DNA from: Campylobacteraceae bacterium
GTDB taxonomy: Bacteria > Campylobacterota > Campylobacteria > Campylobacterales > Sulfurovaceae
Reading direction: 5' to 3'
DNA: 55,006 nt
Assembly: GCA_027036015.1 (NCBI GenBank)
Contig: JALVTH010000009.1
Location: 1-55,006 of the forward strand
Below are positions 35,640 to 44,482 of the stretch, piece after piece; positions within the stretch are counted from its first letter, which is position 1; every line of letters starts with the position of its first letter. Both the position numbers and the translations under genes were made by a program. A model generated the notes under the pieces. It was not told where the DNA came from. It did no database searches and saw only the letters and a program-made list of their open reading frames with translations.

Positions 35640-36350
35640 GTGAGAGATAGGGTTTTTGCTAAAGAGATTGAGAAAAAATTTGAGTTTGATGAGAGCGTTG
35701 CATCAGTTTTTGATGATATGCTCAAGCGCTCAGTCCCTTTTTATAAAGAGGTGCAAAAGCTTATTATTGACTTTATTAATCTTAATGCAAAAGAGGGAGA
35801 TAAGCTTATAGATTTAGGCTGTTCGACAGCCTTGTTTTTGCTTGAAGTTAAAAGCAAAGCAAAAGTCAATTTAGAGCTTTTTGGGATAGATAACTCAAAA
35901 CCAATGCTTCTTCAAGCACAAAAAAAATTGCAAGCTTATGGGATAGAAGAGATTCATCTACAATATGGCGACATTAAAGAGGTAAGTTTAGATAACTTTG
36001 ATTTTATTGTTGCAAATTATACATTACAATTTATTCGCCCAATCAATCGTCCAAAAGTTGTGCAAAAAATTTTTGATGGTTTAAAAAAAGATGGAGTTTT
36101 TATTTTTAGTGAAAAAGTAGTTTTTGAAGATAAAAAGCTTGATAAAGATATAATTGAAATCTATTATGGTTATAAAAAAGCACAAGGCTATAGTGAGTAT
36201 GAAATAAGTAAAAAAAGAGAAGCCTTAGAAAATGTGCTTATTCCTTTTACTATTTCAGAAAATATCCAAATGTGCAAAGATGTTGGATTTAAAAATGTTC
36301 ATACAATCTTTCAATGGGCAAATTTTGTTACCTTTGTTGCAAGGAAATAA
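35640..36350 (+). CDS. cmoA: carboxy-S-adenosyl-L-methionine synthase
   Basis: 236 residues. GTG start with GGGTAGGGG overlapping the dctM stop. N-terminal block DRVFA...[22 protein letters not shown] is characteristic of Cmo[16 protein letters not shown] is the SAM-binding motif [15 protein letters not shown] is also CmoA-typical. It converts SAM and prephenate to carboxy-SAM, used by CmoB to make 5-carboxymethoxyuridine at the tRNA wobble position. It sits at the end of the TRAP operon, probably by chance of packing rather than function. Confidence 0.9.
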
Positions 36351-36365
36351 AGCTGTAACAATATA

Positions 36366-37448
36366 TTACAAACTTTTGATAAATCCATTAAAAATTTTTG
36401 TTACTAATTCAATCCGATTAAAATAGCTTTTTTTATTGGCTCGCTCATGAATAGTATGGTCTCCATCTCCATAAGGACCAAATCCATCAAGTGTTATTGC
36501 TCCAGCACTTGCGGCAATATTGGCATCACTTCCTCCACCTCTTTTTTCGGTTAAAAGCTTGCTATTAGTCCAATTTTCTAAAAGTTTAATAAATTCAAGC
36601 TGTTTGCTATTTTCTTCCATTACATCTCTTTGTAAGTTACCACTTAATTTTGCGCTTGTTCCTTCTATATAAGATGTATTTACAATTTCATGCATCTCTT
36701 TTAAAATTCTATCTCGTTCACTTATTTTACTAAAGCGTGTTTCAAAGAGCAATTTTGCATAAGGGCTAATGGTATTTGCTCCAATTCCTCCTTCGATTTT
36801 TCCAACATTTACAGTTGTGCCTTCTTCTAAAGAGCTTAAGTGTGAAAGTGCCAAGATTTTATGGGCTGCTTCTTGGTTGGCATCAACTCCTTGAGTGTAG
36901 CAGTTGCCAGCATGAGCGGCTTTGCCTGTGATTTCTATGCTAAAGGTGCCAATTCCTTTTCTTGCAGTTACTATTTCTTCATTTTTCCCTGCAGCTTCAA
37001 AAACAAGGCAATAGGTATAGTTTTTTGCTAAATGAAAGGTTAACTCTCTTGAATCATCACTCCCTGTTTCTTCATCACTTACTAATAAAACATCGATATT
37101 ATAAATTTTTTCTTGCGCTCTTAGAGCTTCTACCATGACCATATTACCACCTTTCATGTCACAAACACCAGGACCATAAATCCACTCACTATCTTCGCTA
37201 AAATGCTCAAAAGTTCCTGGTGGAAAAACAGTATCAAGATGTCCTAAAAGGAGCATTTTAGGACCTTCTTTCTTAGCTGATTCAAAAAAAAGGTGGTTAC
37301 CAATTTCTTTTCTTTCATAAATTGTTGTTTTAAAGTTAAGTGCTTCAAACTTTTTTTGCATTAAGGCACCATTTGCATCAACACCTTTTTTATTTTTAGT
37401 ATATGAGTTTATATTGATAAGTTCGGCAAGCTCTTGAAATTCACTCAT
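36366..37448 (-). CDS. M20 metallopeptidase, glutamate-carboxypeptidase (CPG2)-like
   Basis: 360 residues from ATG 37448 after AAAAGG; the in-frame TTG at 37463 precedes it. Metal ligands of the M20 family are present: GHLDTVFPPG (His70, Asp72), GPGVCDMKGG (Asp97), DEETGS (Glu126/127), FEAAG (Glu151), and DGDHTIHERA near the C-terminus; the dimerisation domain (about 165-275) has GKAAHAGNCYTQGVDANQEA. No signal peptide, so cytoplasmic. CPG2 relatives remove C-terminal glutamate from folates or peptides. It is divergent from two ATP-grasp ligases and an M14 peptidase with 78 bp between, suggesting shared control and a role trimming their product. The substrate is not known. Confidence 0.85.
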   Translation of the reverse strand: MSEFQELAELININSYTKNKKGVDANGALMQKKFEALNFKTTIYERKEIGNHLFFESAKKEGPKMLLLGHLDTVFPPGTFEHFSEDSEWIYGPGVCDMKGGNMVMVEALRAQEKIYNIDVLLVSDEETGSDDSRELTFHLAKNYTYCLVFEAAGKNEEIVTARKGIGTFSIEITGKAAHAGNCYTQGVDANQEAAHKILALSHLSSLEEGTTVNVGKIEGGIGANTISPYAKLLFETRFSKISERDRILKEMHEIVNTSYIEGTSAKLSGNLQRDVMEENSKQLEFIKLLENWTNSKLLTEKRGGGSDANIAASAGAITLDGFGPYGDGDHTIHERANKKSYFNRIELVTKIFNGFIKSL

Positions 37449-37526
37449 TTTAAACCTTTTCAAATTTATTTTTATGTAATATAAAAATTTTAAATATTAT
37501 AAGAAATTTTTTCTAAAGGATTCATA
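37449..37526. promoter_or_regulatory. divergent intergenic region between M20 and ATP-grasp genes
   Basis: 78 bases, very AT-rich, with TATTATAAG near 37495-37503 as a possible -10 for the plus strand and ATATAAAA/TTATATT-like tracts that could serve the minus strand. It probably holds both promoters. Confidence 0.4.
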
Positions 37527-38432
37527 ATGGGCAAAGTGGGGATTTGGATGTATCAAAATGGCGGCGGTGATGTGATTGAGCAAAAGTTGGTAAATAAACT
37601 TCAAGAATCAGGCCATGAGGTAATAACAAACATTAATTTGCGTTATGCTGTAGCTGAAAATGGAAAAATACTTTTTAATGGAGAAAATCTTTATGAGCTT
37701 GATTGTTTTTTTAGTTATAATGCCGGGCAACAGACAAAATATCAGGTATATCTTTATGAAACACTTGATAAGCATGTACCATGTATTAATAATTTTAAAG
37801 CATTTCGAATCAGTGAAGATAAATTTAAAACTAATGATTTATTGAGGCAAAATGGCATAAGGACAGCAGATTATTTTTTGTGTCATAGAGAAGATGTAGA
37901 AACGATAAAGAAAAAATTTTTAGAGTGGGGCAAAGTGGTTTTTAAAACAGTTGATGGCTGGGGAGGACTTGGAATGGCTTTAGTTGATAGTAAGGATAAA
38001 CTTGATATGATTTTGCCCTTTTTAAATAGAACCGATATGCGTTTTTTTTACATTGAACAATTTATTGATTATGATGGAAGCGATTTTAGAGTGGATTTGG
38101 TAGATAATGAATTTATTGCTTGTTATGGAAGAAAAGCAAAAGAGGGAGATTGGCGCACCAATGTTACAAGTGGAGGAAGCGTTATATTAAGAGATGATTG
38201 CTCTGATGAGGTGATTGAACTTGCAAAAAGAGCGTCAAAAGCTCTTGGAATGGAAATAGCAGGAGTTGATATTATTTTTGATAGAAAACGTCAAGAGTAT
38301 GTAGTATTAGAAGTAAATGGTATTCCAGCTTTTGCAACGCCTGAGCAAGAGAAATTGGGACTTAATTTTAATGATAAAAAAATTGATAAAATTGTCGAAC
38401 TTATTAATAAAAAAATAAAGGATAAAAAATGA
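37527..38432 (+). CDS. ATP-grasp ligase, RimK/glutathione-synthetase-like
   Basis: 301 residues, cytoplasmic. The ATP-grasp core is seen: VVFKTVDGWGGLGMALV (Lys140 and the glycine-rich ATP loop), YIEQFIDYDGSDFRVDLV, RTNVTSGGSVIL and the metal site in GVDIIF (Asp248) with LEVNGIPAF (Glu262, Asn264). It is thus expected to be active, joining an amino group to a carboxylate through an acyl phosphate. The N-terminal pre-ATP-grasp domain starts GIWMYQNGGG. The following ATP-grasp gene overlaps by 4 bases (ATGA). Substrate unknown; RimK relatives add glutamate or build di/tripeptides. Confidence 0.85.
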   Translation: MGKVGIWMYQNGGGDVIEQKLVNKLQESGHEVITNINLRYAVAENGKILFNGENLYELDCFFSYNAGQQTKYQVYLYETLDKHVPCINNFKAFRISEDKFKTNDLLRQNGIRTADYFLCHREDVETIKKKFLEWGKVVFKTVDGWGGLGMALVDSKDKLDMILPFLNRTDMRFFYIEQFIDYDGSDFRVDLVDNEFIACYGRKAKEGDWRTNVTSGGSVILRDDCSDEVIELAKRASKALGMEIAGVDIIFDRKRQEYVVLEVNGIPAFATPEQEKLGLNFNDKKIDKIVELINKKIKDKK

Positions 38433-39835
38433 AAAAGTTACCAAAAATTGGACTTTTATATTTAGATTATGTTTTGCGATTTTTTGATAGAAGCAATTTT
38501 AGAGGATGGCCTGAAAAAATTGAGACAGTTGTTTATCATTGGAAGGGGGATGAAGAGCGCTTTATTAATGAAGTAAAGCGAAAAAAAATTGATGTATTAA
38601 TTGGAAATATCCCCGCAACTGCCTATGAAACCTTTAGAAAAATTGCAAAAAGATTACCTAATGTGAAATTTATTCCTTCTTTAGATAGCCAATTTGCCAA
38701 TAAATCAAAAGAAAATGTTACAAGATTTTGTCAAAAATATGATATTCCCATTCCAAAAACTTATATTTTTTATAATAAAGAAGAAGGAATGGAGTTTTTA
38801 AAAAATACAACTTATCCAAAAATTATCAAAAGAAGTTACGGTCCCAGCAATTATGGAGGATATTATGTTCATAAAGTAGATTCATACGAGGAAGCAAAAA
38901 AATTACTTGAAACTAAAAAATATTGTCCAATTTATGTGCAAGATTTTATTCCAATGAGTGCAGATATTAGAGTAATGCTTATTGGGCATAAACCAGTTTG
39001 TGCTTTTTGGAGAAGACCTCCAAAAGGACATTGGCTCACCAACACAAGCCAAGGTGGAAGTATGGATTATATGGATGTGCCAAAAGGGGTTTTGGATTTG
39101 GCTGTAAAAGTAAGCAAAGCTGCAAATGCAGAATACTGGGCATGTGATATTGCAGTTGGAAAAGAAGATGGTAAATATCGAATTTTAGAGTGTGCGACTG
39201 CTTTTGCTGCTTTTCCTTATATTAGAGATTGGATTGGACAATATTTGATGTGGAAGTTAAGTAGTGGCAGATTTCCTAAACCAAATATTCCAATATATAA
39301 CTGGGAAGAGCTTGGAAAGATTGATAGTTCGCTTCTTAGAACAATGCGTTATATTACTTTTGGGCGCTATACACCAAGCTTTGATGGGGAGTATTTTTTA
39401 AATAGAAGAAAAATTGATGAAAGAGGAGCTGTTCATAAGATTTGGGAACTTGATGAAGAGTATCCTATGTTAAACACAGAAGATAGAACTACTGAAGAGT
39501 GGCCAAGCGAAAAGTGGGATTTTACATATAAATGTAAAGGTTTTTGGAAAGAAGAACCACAAAATGAGAATAAAAAAGAATCAAATGAAGAACATAATTT
39601 TGAAGAAGTAACTGACGAAGAGCCGATACAATTTAGTGAAGAAGAGTTAATTAGCTTTTTTAAAGAGGTTTTAGGGGATAATTTCGAAAATATTACAAAG
39701 CAAATTGATATATTCAACCTTGCATATGAGCTTGATAATAATCCTCAAGCATTATTGGAGATTGAAGGAATTAGCGAAAGTGGTTTAGAAGTTTTGCTTA
39801 CAAAGTGGAATCAATTTAAAAAGGAAAGTAGTTGA
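38429..39835 (+). CDS. second ATP-grasp protein with altered metal site and C-terminal HhH-like tail
   Basis: 468 residues. ATP-grasp elements: KIIKRSYGPSNYGGYYVHKV (about 131-150), YVQDFIPMSADIRVMLIG (169-186), WLTNTSQGGSMDY, and WACDIAV (Asp240). Where E-x-N is expected the sequence is ILECATAFAAF: Glu254 is kept but Asn is Ala256. So the second Mg2+ ligand is missing and activity may be altered. Beyond residue about 355 is an acidic linker (NENKKESNEEHNFEE) and a short helical end (DIFNLAYELDNNPQALLEIE) like a helix-hairpin-helix. It overlaps its upstream ATP-grasp partner and the downstream M14 gene by 4 bases each; it may be a regulatory or heterodimer partner. Confidence 0.75.
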   Translation: MKKLPKIGLLYLDYVLRFFDRSNFRGWPEKIETVVYHWKGDEERFINEVKRKKIDVLIGNIPATAYETFRKIAKRLPNVKFIPSLDSQFANKSKENVTRFCQKYDIPIPKTYIFYNKEEGMEFLKNTTYPKIIKRSYGPSNYGGYYVHKVDSYEEAKKLLETKKYCPIYVQDFIPMSADIRVMLIGHKPVCAFWRRPPKGHWLTNTSQGGSMDYMDVPKGVLDLAVKVSKAANAEYWACDIAVGKEDGKYRILECATAFAAFPYIRDWIGQYLMWKLSSGRFPKPNIPIYNWEELGKIDSSLLRTMRYITFGRYTPSFDGEYFLNRRKIDERGAVHKIWELDEEYPMLNTEDRTTEEWPSEKWDFTYKCKGFWKEEPQNENKKESNEEHNFEEVTDEEPIQFSEEELISFFKEVLGDNFENITKQIDIFNLAYELDNNPQALLEIEGISESGLEVLLTKWNQFKKESS

Positions 39836-42408
39836 AGCATCAATACAAATCTTATCAAGATACAATCAATTTTTTAGAAGAAAAGGTTAAGGAGTATCCG
39901 CATTTAATAAAAATTGAATCAATTGGAAAGACATGGGAAAATAGAGATATTATTTTAGCAACTGTAAGTTTGGATGTTGAGTTTGCCAATTTAAAGCCAG
40001 CTCTTTTATATACAGGGACAATTCATGCAAGAGAGTGGATTGGTAATGAATTGGCTGTGGCTTTTATTGACTATTTATTAACGCATCATAAAAGCGATCC
40101 AAGAGTTATTCAAGCGCTATCACGAAATACGCTTTATATAGTGCCAGTGCTGAACCCAGATGGATTTGAATATAGCCAAAAACACTATTCATTTTGGCGT
40201 AAAAACAGAAGAAAAAACCCAGATGGAAGTTATGGAGTAGATTTAAACAGAAATTTTAGTGTTGGATGGGTAAAGAGTAATAACTACTCATCCAATGTCT
40301 ATGGAGGTCCAGCACCTTTTAGTGAACCAGAAACAAAAGCTATTAAAAATTTTGTAGATTCTCATCCAAATATTACCATTGCACTTGATTATCACTCACA
40401 AGGGAATGTTTTTTTCCCAGCACACAAATTTAACCACGAAGCTGAGATTGAAGGGACTGATTTAAATGTACTTTGTGCTAATATGAATTATGAAATAGAA
40501 AAAGTTACTGGCAGACGCTATGGGATTCATCGTGGAAAGCCTCCAGCAAAACTAATTAGCGGCAGTGGGAGAGAGTATTACTATTCAAAAGGAATTTTAG
40601 CAAGTGTTGTTGAGGTAGGAACAAGAAATATTCCAGATTATTTACAAAATATGAGTGAATCGATACATGAAAATATTCCAGCCCTTTTATATGCCCTTAA
40701 TGAAGCACATAACTATTCAAAAAATACACCTCCAAGAGTTGAGGAGTTTTTTATTGAAGAGGTAAAAAGCAATTGTGTTAAGCTAAAATGGGATTATGAT
40801 TTACAAAATTATCCAAATGTCTATTTTGAAATTTATCGAAATGAAAAACATAAAGAAGCGTGTCGAGAACCTTCTCTCATTGCAACTACAAACGAGCTTG
40901 AATATCTTGATAAAGATAGAAAAAGTGGAAAACTTTATTTTTATTATATAAGAGCTGTTGATGCTATTACTAAGCTAAAGGGTCCTTTTGCTCCACAAGT
41001 TAAAGTTATGACACAGCTTGAAAGGGATGAGTTTTTTAGAAACATTTTTCCAGCTCCGCAAGATATTGGATATGTGGCTGAGAAATCTACAAAAAATAAA
41101 GAGCATTTTGGTAAGAACTCTTTGTTTGTAGGAGTAAATAAAACATTAGGTGTTAGTTATGGTGTTTTAAAATTTAAAACTCCTTCAATTCCAAAAAATG
41201 CAATTATAAAAGAAGCAAAAATAAGTTTATACCCCCTTAATCGTGTTAATGTAAAAATAGAAAAGTATGGAGAGTGGGGAATAAGTTTTATTGAAGACGT
41301 AAAAAATTTGAGCGACTTTAATGAAATTGCCAATGCAAAGGTAATCCAAACTTTAGGTCATACTATTCCTTCACAAAAGCTCACTCAAGGTATTTGGCAA
41401 ACATGGGAATTGAATGAGTTTGAAAAAAAGATTTTGCAAGAGCAGTTACAAAAAGGTGAAGTCCTCTTTCGTTTAGAAGGGCCTACAAAGCTCCCACTTG
41501 GGGCTGATTCGCAAATGATGATGTTTGATTTAGGTTATGGTCCATTTGGTGGAGGAATTCATTACAGACCACATTTGGATATTAAATATACACTACCTCC
41601 AACAAGTGTAGAGTTAGAACCATCAACTTTAGCAACTGTTTATGAGAATGAAGTAGTTTTTGATAATCTCTCTTGCGGTTTTGATAAAGATGGGAAAGTA
41701 GTATATGGATATATGGAATTTGATTTATCCTCTTTACCAACTCCAACCGATACAGTGATAACACAAAGTTATATTCAAATTCAAAGCAAAGGGATTAAAA
41801 AAAGCAAAGAAGATATTCGATATTTGATTGAGTTTGTCAATTTAGAAAAGCTTGATTATAAGCATATTAAAAATAGAACATCACTTGGCTTTATTGATTA
41901 TGAAGTAAGCGAAGATGAGTTGCAAAAAGAAAGCACAAACTATTTTATATTTGATAGTGCAAGCAAAATAGAATTAGAAAAAATACATGAAGATAGAAAT
42001 AAAGTTGGTTTTCTAATTCGTCCAACATTAGCCTCATTAACGAAAAATCATATAATCAACTGGTATGATAAAAAGAGTCCAAATGCAGTAAAATTTGTAA
42101 TTAAATATATTAAAAGAAGAAAAGAGTCAGTTGCACAAGTAAAAAATCTTAAAGCAACCATTGAAAAAAATATGGTTAAACTTACTTGGGAAAATCCAAA
42201 AGATAAAGATTTTGTTGGAGCATTTGTGGTTCGAAATAGATTTCATCCACCAAAAAATCCACACGATGGTGTAAAACTCTATGCTGGAAAAGACAATTAT
42301 ACCTATGATAATTTTGGCAATACCAAAATTGAAAAATATTACGCTGTCTTTACATATGATGATGTGCCAAATTATAGTAAGCCTGTCATTTTACACTATA
42401 AACCCTAA
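39832..42408 (+). CDS. M14 zinc carboxypeptidase with Fn3- and DNRLRE-like domains, no signal peptide
   Basis: 858 residues, TTG start overlapping the previous TGA, with AAAAGGAAAG upstream. The catalytic domain (about 1-295) has the zinc site HAREW (His65, Glu68) and ALDYHSQG (His188), substrate-binding DLNRNF (Asn139, Arg140), and the catalytic Glu261 in SVVEVGTRN. Then an Fn3-like domain (about 300-395), two beta domains resembling DNRLRE/CBM96-type modules (about 410-580 and 600-775, with YGVLKFKTPSIPKNAIIKEA and YGYMEFDLSSLPTPTDTVI), and a last Fn3-like domain (about 785-858). Such accessory modules are usually extracellular, yet no signal peptide is present. With two ATP-grasp ligases upstream, it may trim or cyclise their product. 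Confidence 0.8.
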   Translation: MKHQYKSYQDTINFLEEKVKEYPHLIKIESIGKTWENRDIILATVSLDVEFANLKPALLYTGTIHAREWIGNELAVAFIDYLLTHHKSDPRVIQALSRNTLYIVPVLNPDGFEYSQKHYSFWRKNRRKNPDGSYGVDLNRNFSVGWVKSNNYSSNVYGGPAPFSEPETKAIKNFVDSHPNITIALDYHSQGNVFFPAHKFNHEAEIEGTDLNVLCANMNYEIEKVTGRRYGIHRGKPPAKLISGSGREYYYSKGILASVVEVGTRNIPDYLQNMSESIHENIPALLYALNEAHNYSKNTPPRVEEFFIEEVKSNCVKLKWDYDLQNYPNVYFEIYRNEKHKEACREPSLIATTNELEYLDKDRKSGKLYFYYIRAVDAITKLKGPFAPQVKVMTQLERDEFFRNIFPAPQDIGYVAEKSTKNKEHFGKNSLFVGVNKTLGVSYGVLKFKTPSIPKNAIIKEAKISLYPLNRVNVKIEKYGEWGISFIEDVKNLSDFNEIANAKVIQTLGHTIPSQKLTQGIWQTWELNEFEKKILQEQLQKGEVLFRLEGPTKLPLGADSQMMMFDLGYGPFGGGIHYRPHLDIKYTLPPTSVELEPSTLATVYENEVVFDNLSCGFDKDGKVVYGYMEFDLSSLPTPTDTVITQSYIQIQSKGIKKSKEDIRYLIEFVNLEKLDYKHIKNRTSLGFIDYEVSEDELQKESTNYFIFDSASKIELEKIHEDRNKVGFLIRPTLASLTKNHIINWYDKKSPNAVKFVIKYIKRRKESVAQVKNLKATIEKNMVKLTWENPKDKDFVGAFVVRNRFHPPKNPHDGVKLYAGKDNYTYDNFGNTKIEKYYAVFTYDDVPNYSKPVILHYKP

Positions 42409-42420
42409 AATGGGTTTTTT
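42400..42420. terminator. terminator shared by the M14 and panE-like genes
   Basis: AAACCC and GGGTTT form a six-pair stem followed by TTT on the plus strand. The M14 TAA (42406-42408) is in the loop and the convergent TAG (42407-42405) overlaps it. Confidence 0.65.
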
Positions 42421-43304
42421 AAAGAGTGATAAATTTTCTCCATTAAAGGAGCACTTACTCCTAACTTTTTACTCTCTTTAGCTACAAATCCAAGAAGAGA
42501 TTCAATTTCGCTTTTTTTGCCTTTTTCAAAATCAAGTTGCATTGAGGTTTTTGCACCTTTAATTACTTTCAAAGCTTGAGCAAGAGCATCATCAATATCT
42601 TTTTGGCTAAGAGCAATACCCTTTTTTTGGGCTAAAAGGGTAATTTCGCTAAGAAGCTTTTTAAAATCATTTTGATATTTTGAAGCAATAATATCCATAG
42701 ATGTTTTATAATATGTTGTCAAAGCAGCCATTGCCGAGATAAAAAGAAATTTTTTCCAAATCTCATAATCGATATTTTGAGTAAATTTGTGGCGAAGTTT
42801 GGCATTATCAAAAAGTGTGGCAATTTGTTTTTGACTTTTTGTATCAATTGCACCGCCCCAGCAAAGTTTAAAAACTTTACCCTTTTTTTCAATGACTCCA
42901 GGCTCTTTTAGATGCGAAATAATATAAATGCAACCTTTAAGCACTATCGCATTTGGATAATATTTTTTAATTGTTACATCGTGTTCAACGCCATTTAAAA
43001 GTGGCAAAATGATTGTGTTTCTATTAATATTATTTTTTAGTTGTTCTAAAAGTGGTTCTAAATCGTATGATTTAACAGCAATTAGAATAAAATCAAAAAT
43101 ACCTTCTTCTTTTAGATTATCAACTACTTTAAATGGCTTAATAATAAACTCTTCATTATTATCAATAACTTTGAGTCCATTTTTTTTGATAGTCTCAAGG
43201 TGAGAGGCTCTTGCTAAAAGTGTAACTTTGGCATTGCTATTTTGAATAAGCTTTGCTCCAATATATCCGCCAACCCCTCCAGCTGCTGCAATTAAAATTT
43301 TCAC
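42405..43304 (-). CDS. ketopantoate reductase family protein (PanE/ApbA)
   Basis: 299 residues. N-terminal NADP-binding motif AAAGGVGGYIGAKL and ILIAVKSYDLEPLLEQL; LPLLNGVEHD follows; the C-terminal helical domain has EIWKKFLFISAMAALTTYYK (the catalytic Lys in the KF region) and the long helix LAQKKGIALS. It reduces 2-dehydropantoate to pantoate for CoA synthesis; family members with other substrates exist, so the symbol panE is likely but not certain. It converges with the ligase/peptidase operon, sharing a terminator. Confidence 0.85.
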   Translation of the reverse strand: MKILIAAAGGVGGYIGAKLIQNSNAKVTLLARASHLETIKKNGLKVIDNNEEFIIKPFKVVDNLKEEGIFDFILIAVKSYDLEPLLEQLKNNINRNTIILPLLNGVEHDVTIKKYYPNAIVLKGCIYIISHLKEPGVIEKKGKVFKLCWGGAIDTKSQKQIATLFDNAKLRHKFTQNIDYEIWKKFLFISAMAALTTYYKTSMDIIASKYQNDFKKLLSEITLLAQKKGIALSQKDIDDALAQALKVIKGAKTSMQLDFEKGKKSEIESLLGFVAKESKKLGVSAPLMEKIYHSLKNPF

Positions 43305-43378
43305 TCAAACTCCTTGAATAAAATTATCATTATCTTAACAAAATGTGATAAAAAGAGGATAAAAAGTTATTAAATAGT

Positions 43379-44365
43379 TTAAAGTTCCTCTTTAAACTGG
43401 GTACAATGGTCATATTGTTGCACAATTTTTTCATCAAACTTTATTAAAATATTATGGTTTTGTAAAACTTCTAAAGTAATGGTATGATTTGCTCCTTTTA
43501 TAAGAAGTTTGCCTTGATGAAAACATAACTGATTGTCTATTTCATCATTTTCATTTGCTTCAAAAGCCATTGGTGTTTCTAAAACGATCCATCCATTCAG
43601 TTTTGAGCTATAAATTGCTCCAGAGAGTTTAAAAGATAGATAGCGTTTGTGAGTATCGTTTGTAGTTTCGTCATCAAAAATTTTTTCTCTTTTTATGTTT
43701 TTAAATTGTAATGTTTCTTTACCATTAACAAAAGTAGCGTCATATTGTAAAAAAGAAGAGCCTTTGTTTATATTAGCTTGACTTTGATTGTTATCGTTTT
43801 GCATTCCATTAAAAAGACTAACTTCTCCTTTGTTATGCAAAATATAACTAATTGTTACTTTATGTGTTGTATCTTTTTGATAAGTCATTTGAGAGCTTTG
43901 ATAAATTAAATCGTATGTTAAGATAGGTTTATGAAGACTCCATTTCTCACTTATTTTTTCAACCCCATTTAAAGAGATAGTAGGATTTTTTTTACAATCG
44001 TGATAAATAACTTCAACAACTGAGTTTCCAGAAGTTTTGTTTGTTTCGTAATAATTTACTTCTGAATTTCCAGAGAGTTTAATTGTTTCTTTGAATCCTC
44101 CATCACTACAATATTCTTTATTTTGTGAAGTTGAAGCAAAAGGTTTTGAGACCTTTTTTAATTTATTAGATGTGCCAAAATCGTTTAAAAGTTCCGTTGG
44201 CTTTAAAAAATTTGATTGGATAATTGAGCTTACAAGTTCTTTGGATTGGTTCTTTTGTAAATTTGCTGTTGGAGTGATTGCATCTTCTATTTTTGAATAA
44301 CTTTCACCGCCACCACAACCATAAAATATAAAAAGGGTTAACAAGCTTACAAAAAGTGCTTTCAT
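43379..44365 (-). CDS. lipoprotein of unknown function
   Basis: 328 residues from ATG 44365 after GAAAGGAAGAG. Signal ends IFYGC with Cys about 17 and then a Gly-rich GGGES. The rest is beta-strand-rich with no recognised family; it contains Cys residues in EYCSDGG, HDCKKN, QLCFHQG and DHCTQF, possibly two disulphides. The pattern of repeated LSGNSEV, YHDC, QMTYQK strands suggests an extended beta sheet. Likely envelope lipoprotein; role unknown. Divergent from argH with 117 bp between. Confidence 0.65.
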   Translation of the reverse strand: MKALFVSLLTLFIFYGCGGGESYSKIEDAITPTANLQKNQSKELVSSIIQSNFLKPTELLNDFGTSNKLKKVSKPFASTSQNKEYCSDGGFKETIKLSGNSEVNYYETNKTSGNSVVEVIYHDCKKNPTISLNGVEKISEKWSLHKPILTYDLIYQSSQMTYQKDTTHKVTISYILHNKGEVSLFNGMQNDNNQSQANINKGSSFLQYDATFVNGKETLQFKNIKREKIFDDETTNDTHKRYLSFKLSGAIYSSKLNGWIVLETPMAFEANENDEIDNQLCFHQGKLLIKGANHTITLEVLQNHNILIKFDEKIVQQYDHCTQFKEEL

Positions 44366-44482
44366 TACTCTTCCTTTCGATAAATTTATCAATTATACCA
44401 AATAACAAAAAGATAAAAAATAAAACTATAGCAATTAAGATAATCTAAGTTAAGATATCAAAAAAGTTTAGAGGAGAAGAGT

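Follow-up and report, generated by a model that had tools for sequence, protein, structure and literature searches.

What would a bacterium join together, and then take apart again, with two ATP-grasp ligases and two zinc carboxypeptidases encoded side by side? The question is raised by a locus within a 55,006-nucleotide stretch of DNA, referred to here as the window, from a Campylobacteraceae bacterium of the Sulfurovaceae (assembly GCA_027036015.1, contig JALVTH010000009.1, positions 1 to 55,006), for which a first-pass annotation had suggested a system that makes and trims a small peptide or a tag. We find that the four genes constitute a genuine, conserved, and transferable cassette that resembles known writer/eraser pairs, with membership in none of them established. 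As to its function, we favor, tentatively and at somewhat less than an even chance, a cytosolic, self-contained, and horizontally moving system that would write and erase acidic amino acids, most likely glutamate. The four open reading frames (ORFs) lie where they had first been placed, and both 4-base overlaps and the 78-bp gap (counted from the ATG of the M20 gene) are seen:

36366..37448, minus strand: M20 metallopeptidase, carboxypeptidase-G2-like, with an ATG start at 37448 (Pfam Peptidase_M20 and M20_dimer).
37449..37526, no strand: 78-bp intergenic gap between the divergent M20 and AG1 genes, containing a ribosome-binding-like AAAGGA ahead of AG1.
37527..38432, plus strand: AG1, a RimK/LysX-type ATP-grasp ligase with canonical D248, E262, and N264.
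38429..39835, plus strand: AG2, a second RimK/LysX-type ATP-grasp ligase, with a very conserved ATP-grasp region (residues ~1-330), an acidic linker, and a small helical C-terminal domain (residues 404-467).
39832..42408, plus strand: M14 zinc carboxypeptidase, with the M14 domain (residues 1-295) followed by FnIII-like, two DNRLRE-like, and FnIII-like beta domains; its TTG start overlaps the AG2 stop.

The linkage of these genes is far from chance. Profile counts were made for AG1, AG2, and M14 across 397 Campylobacterota genomes, with M20 followed within fetched loci. AG1 is present in 52 genomes (matches above 380 bits, with three further weak ones of 27-31% identity dropped), AG2 in 52, and M14 in 54, and all three occur together in 50 of the 56 genomes having any of them; pairwise co-occurrence gives Fisher p values of ~1e-58 to 1e-59, uncorrected for relatedness. 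M20, AG1, AG2, and M14 are adjacent in 41/51 fetched loci with unrelated surroundings; in 17 of the 41 M20 is divergent, and in the other 24 it runs in the same direction as its neighbors. Co-conservation in related genomes had been set beforehand as a test of the first-pass proposal, and it is borne out both for the trio and for all four genes. No fifth gene conserved across families was found beside the cassette in the fetched loci, which suggests a substrate that is either common to distant hosts or built from amino acids.

Six genomes depart from the full AG1/AG2/M14 trio (G037, G371, G104, G217, G255, and G380). M14 is a fragment in G371 and the only one of the three in G255, AG1 is missing from G217 and AG2 from G380, and G104 has M20-AG1 on a 4.2-kb contig, with neither AG2 nor M14. 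G037 represents co-loss of the set: a broken AG2 remnant with stops lies at an efp/dnaE site (L080, 8707-8982), and the genome lacks AG1 and M14. Among the ten loci in which the four genes are not all adjacent, five (L053 and L055-L058), from one genus (g15) of family f7, have AG2 apart and M20-AG1-M14 together elsewhere. The lone AG2 of the g15 loci sits between putative efp and dnaE (DNA polymerase III alpha subunit) genes (L053, 8336-14094); these names were read from N termini for L053, and the same gene clusters are found in the other g15 loci. In most loci of family f6 (such as L063, 5200-5700 and 12011-13255) argG precedes the cassette and a gamma-carbonic-anhydrase-like gene follows M14, names that are likewise readings of N termini, and this linkage is confined to f6. 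In G392 (L185, G392:C109, 7547-11500) the order is M14, a small monooxygenase-like ORF, rpsF, ssb, and rpsR, with AG1-AG2 on another contig; gene names other than S6 are our own assignments.

Translational coupling of AG1, AG2, and M14 is suggested by their 4-base overlaps (ATGA between AG1 and AG2, TTGA between AG2 and M14) and by the purine-rich sites ahead of their starts (AAAGGA for AG1 and AG2, AAGGAAAG for M14). Many relatives have the M14 TTG start at one and the same position of the alignment, and M20 has an alternative start at an upstream in-frame TTG at 37463, giving an ORF of 36366-37463 on the minus strand. A scan for promoters and terminators at the cassette, including the M20/AG1 gap, returned scores no higher than those of shuffled sequence. 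Domain assignments come from Pfam matches to RimK in AG1 (1.2e-24, 87.4 bits) and AG2 (1.9e-13, 50.9 bits; cut-off, 21 bits) and to Peptidase_M14 (5.8e-56).

The genes flanking the cassette vary between families, and the window's own copy does not follow its host. All four cassette protein trees nest the window within family f8, which we take to be Nitratiruptor records, and its cassette proteins share 65-85% identity with those of the seven f8 loci and no more than 66% with those of any other locus (39 compared, whole alignments). The window's ArgH, in contrast, is 70-74% identical to those of its own family, f1, presumably Sulfurovum records, and 67-70% to those of f8 (ArgH was matched in eight of the nine f1 genomes); its CmoA is 60-70% identical in 8/9 f1 genomes, 29% in the ninth, and 49-55% in f8. 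Because the housekeeping genes are nearest f1 but the cassette is nearest f8, the window copy evidently came from a Nitratiruptor-like donor. Photobacterium sp. DA100 has the four genes on a 2.1-Mb plasmid record in the same order, with the same divergence and 4-base overlaps (AG2 58%, M14 54%, AG1 54%, and M20 52% identical to the window). The cassette thus moves horizontally among Campylobacterota families and to a gammaproteobacterium.

Within the window's genus, M14 is present in 5/12 genomes, these being the window and four others, in each of which the best copy has 54-57% identity to the window M14. One other observation concerns G397, a genome of this genus (82% complete) with three M14 matches on contigs C22, C69, and C151, reflecting either multiple copies or a bin of mixed origin. 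The cassette is lacking from the congener G207, where argH directly follows dctM at a distance of ~55 bp; in the window the two genes are separated by CmoA, the cassette, PanE, and another ORF (hypothetical, 337 aa), and the block 35640-44392 is missing from G207. The G207 arrangement resembles an empty site and may reflect an insertion in the window, perhaps of more than the cassette, or a loss in G207. A search for repeats flanking the cassette revealed no insertion-type repeats, merely short imperfect matches. Relatives were found in genome contigs, the best 80 of 340 all with Campylobacterota-type names; other phyla may be represented among the remaining 260. We rejected carriage by phages, because no cassette relative was found in viral contigs and the matches in a phage collection are ATP-grasp proteins only 23-32% identical.

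What chemistry might be encoded is best approached through M14. Its zinc ligands and catalytic residues (H65, E68, R123, N139, R140, H188, and E261) are kept in 44/44 relatives, as is Arg247 at the S1' specificity position. Its closest matches in PDB searches are CPT, CPA4, and carboxypeptidase O (CPO), and Arg247 aligns with an Ile of CPA4 and with an Arg of human CPO, in an SG-S/G-x-R-D/E context common to the cassette enzyme and CPO. According to one report, Arg255 of CPO confers acidic specificity, and a frog enzyme with Arg at that position cleaved a Glu-Glu substrate and not the other two (PMC9925722). CPO is a secreted eukaryotic enzyme, whereas the cassette M14 has four additional beta domains and lacks its Tyr248 equivalent; no signal-like N terminus was seen by eye in 43/43 relatives, the protein beginning at the catalytic domain, which argues for a cytosolic location. 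The sequence therefore suggests an M14 enzyme that is acidic-specific and cytosolic. The C-terminal ~560 residues are beta domains, with FnIII matches in 8/16 and DNRLRE matches in 16/16; a profile built from the second half of the M14 domain matched ETS domains in the PDB, which we ascribe to chance.

The best PDB match of M20 is carboxypeptidase G2 (CPG2; 1cg2, 7.5e-29); the alignment covers residues 10-337 of 365, and the ligands of the dinuclear zinc site correspond. The metal-binding residues H75, D102, E132, E156, and H336 are present in 42/42 aligned copies (one additional row, a mis-started 8-residue fragment, was set aside). The likeness has its limits, as M20 scores 188.6 bits against a cut-off of 349 for the glutamate carboxypeptidase model NF004788 of NCBIfam. 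An M20 peptidase of Photobacterium damselae with 27-fold salt regulation was left unused, as its cassette membership could not be shown (PMC10308900).

AG1 keeps its metal-ligand triad (D248, E262, and N264) in 44/44 copies, and RimK is its best solved relative. The nearest folds to AG2 are ArgX, LysX, and RimK (Z ~20, root-mean-square deviation 2.9-3.4 Å over 251-263 residues). Both ligases score below the cut-offs of all named enzyme models in NCBIfam, so the possibility that they would match a characterized enzyme of an unrelated pathway, which the first-pass annotation had named as fatal to its proposal, did not materialize. The C-terminal helical domain of AG2 is confidently predicted (per-block pLDDT, a per-residue model confidence, of 83-92), and helix-hairpin-helix models match AG2 members at E values up to 0.01 (HHH_5 in 14/19, HHH_3 in 5/19). 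Among the cassette pairs, distances correlate most strongly between AG2 and M14 (r 0.90), whose trees also have the largest number of well-supported splits in common (16, of 23 and 30).

Together, the RimK kinship of the ligases, the CPG2 kinship of M20, and the Arg at S1' of M14 point to acidic residues. In the scheme that we propose, AG1 and AG2 would activate a carboxylate as an acyl phosphate and then join an amino acid to it, with AG1 acting as the standard catalyst and AG2 as an atypical ligase whose C-terminal domain would anchor it to a macromolecule or a partner. M14, as the counterpart of AG2, would take off C-terminal Glu or Asp, and M20, as the counterpart of AG1, would hydrolyze the remaining acyl-glutamate bond. 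The gene set, its co-inheritance and horizontal movement, the active-site residues, and the lack of a signal peptide are shown by the data, whereas we infer that glutamate is the unit, which way the reactions run, which writer belongs with which eraser, and that there is a role in metal or protein-damage stress; the co-variation of AG2 with M14, together with the occurrence of M20-AG1 alone in G104, suggests two writer/eraser pairs.

Several observations weigh against this reading. AG2 keeps D240 and E254, but in 51/51 copies the second metal-ligand Asn is replaced by Ala (A256; LECA instead of LEVN), and AG2 may thus be inactive or act differently; its first 330 residues nevertheless show strong conservation. 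The Arg preceding the GG motif of RimK and LysX is Ser/Ala in AG1 and Gln in AG2, which leaves room for an amino acid other than glutamate as the substrate. No helix-hairpin-helix match is obtained for AG2 of either the window or Photobacterium, the residue of M14 equivalent to Tyr248 is K, H, A, or R, and AG1 distances correlate less well with those of the other cassette proteins (r 0.49 to 0.61). In the five g15 genomes M20-AG1-M14 stay linked without AG2, which opposes a simple pairing. RimK itself is a further difficulty: AG1 (132.9 bits) and AG2 (79.3 bits) fall below the RimK-family cut-off of TIGR00768 (143.4 bits) as well as that for S6 ligases, and tails of ribosomal S6, the classical RimK substrate, are equally acidic in 12 cassette-positive and 12 cassette-negative genomes, for which reason S6 was rejected as a target. 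The cassette shares the RimK ATP-grasp domain of AG1 with the RimK/RimABK system of S6 polyglutamylation; however, its partners are M14 and M20 zinc enzymes, whereas RimB is described as retropepsin-like (PMC12239564).

A possible physiological setting comes from cultured carriers, which probably include Nitratiruptor sp. SB155-2 and Sulfurovum sp. NBC37-1 (presumably G036 and G263, respectively). In the former, 27 genes are induced by both cadmium and copper, among them proB, chaperones, and NIS_RS04835, an 'ATP-grasp domain-containing protein' (log2 1.03 and 1.29), and NIS_RS04910 is an SO_0444 transporter (Table 1, PMC10092412). The SO_0444 transporter lies at 913301-914314 in G036, and the genes after it (cytochrome c, winged-helix regulator, and TolC) agree with the table, with ORF starts read by eye. 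Counting fifteen ORFs back from the transporter leads to AG2, or to AG1 if a split CopA-like gene is counted once, which would make NIS_RS04835 a cassette ligase; gene order thus suggests that one of the ligases is metal-responsive.

This induction would also fit a small acidic product, which is the main rival: AG1 and AG2 would make a cytosolic glutamyl oligopeptide, serving as a metal-binding, redox, or osmotic protectant, and M14 and M20 would recycle it. CPG2-type M20 enzymes act on small acyl-glutamates, and the cassette is kept as a unit after its transfer to another phylum with no conserved fifth gene, so that free amino acids may be the substrate. Nonetheless, the ~560 residues of FnIII- and DNRLRE-like domains in M14 and the frequent helix-hairpin-helix of AG2 would be odd for small-molecule work, and the induction is modest, based on two replicates, with the other three cassette genes absent from Table 1 (PMC10092412). 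We consider a small peptide somewhat unlikely, and hold only with considerable doubt that a protein C terminus is the likelier target. The proposal to make and trim stands in part: its write/erase logic gains from the predicted acidic-specific cytosolic M14 and from an M20 closest to CPG2, and the product may be either a small peptide or a C-terminal protein tag. No precursor peptide was found near the cassette, and S6 tails show no difference. A ribosomal precursor cyclized by the ATP-grasps and trimmed by the peptidases, as in graspetide pathways, is very improbable; AG2 does weakly match MvdC/MvdD and SAV_5884 maturases, but far under their cut-offs, none of the small ORFs up to 1.2 kb from the cassette is shared between families, and neither an exporter nor a double-glycine peptidase is conserved beside it. 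The short-ORF clusters that are found belong to f6 loci, apart from a single f7 locus in one of them, and are probably shadows, lying over or beside flanking genes.

Degradative roles are common for M14 and M20 enzymes, and an upstream part of the window encodes an unrelated TRAP transporter, so salvage or catabolism of peptides, with the ligases as side activities, deserves mention; it is improbable given co-inheritance with both ligases, the missing signal peptide of M14, and TRAP permease genes that are unlinked in other loci. Slightly less probable again is chemistry of the LysX/ArgX-LysK kind, in which AG1 and AG2 would load an amino acid onto a protein carboxyl for protection and M20 and M14 would release it. 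That system shares the combination of ATP-grasp and M20 hydrolase and the nearest folds of AG2, and argG lies just upstream in f6 loci and argH ~2 kb downstream in the window. However, the scores are far below cut-off (AG1 against LysX, 102 bits versus 275.6; M20 against [LysW]-lysine hydrolase, 48 bits versus 363), M14 has no role in that pathway, and no biosynthetic or LysW carrier gene is conserved beside the cassette across families, although no genome-wide search was made for the carrier. Anti-phage defense was also rejected, as PADLOC returned 0 matches for the four proteins up to E 0.01.

Returning to reversible addition of acidic residues, a close analogy is with the eukaryotic TTLL polyglutamylases and the M14 deglutamylases of the CCP type, which likewise combine ATP-grasp writers with M14 enzymes, as the cassette M14 should remove acidic C-terminal residues. 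The cassette ligases, however, are RimK/LysX-like, and its M14 is nearest CPT/CPA4/CPO; no tubulin-tyrosine-ligase models are among the matches of the cassette proteins up to E 0.001, and all ATP-grasp matches are to families of the RimK kind. By this analogy the cassette could be a bacterial counterpart of tubulin polyglutamylation that evolved independently of TTLL/CCP, a rather doubtful proposition in which transferable, stress-linked, reversible acidic residues would be placed on the C terminus of a conserved protein by two ATP-grasp writers, one tethered by its helix-hairpin-helix, and removed by two dedicated erasers, M14 and M20. Our literature search found no account of the four-gene set, of which an earlier description may exist. 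To our knowledge, eukaryotes provide well-described cases of reversible amino-acid tagging with dedicated erasers, whereas in bacteria such tagging is hardly known. If our reading is true, these bacteria would have a compact write-and-erase module together with a predicted acidic-specific M14 enzyme; if the cassette instead makes a small peptide, vent bacteria may prove to have a new stress metabolite.

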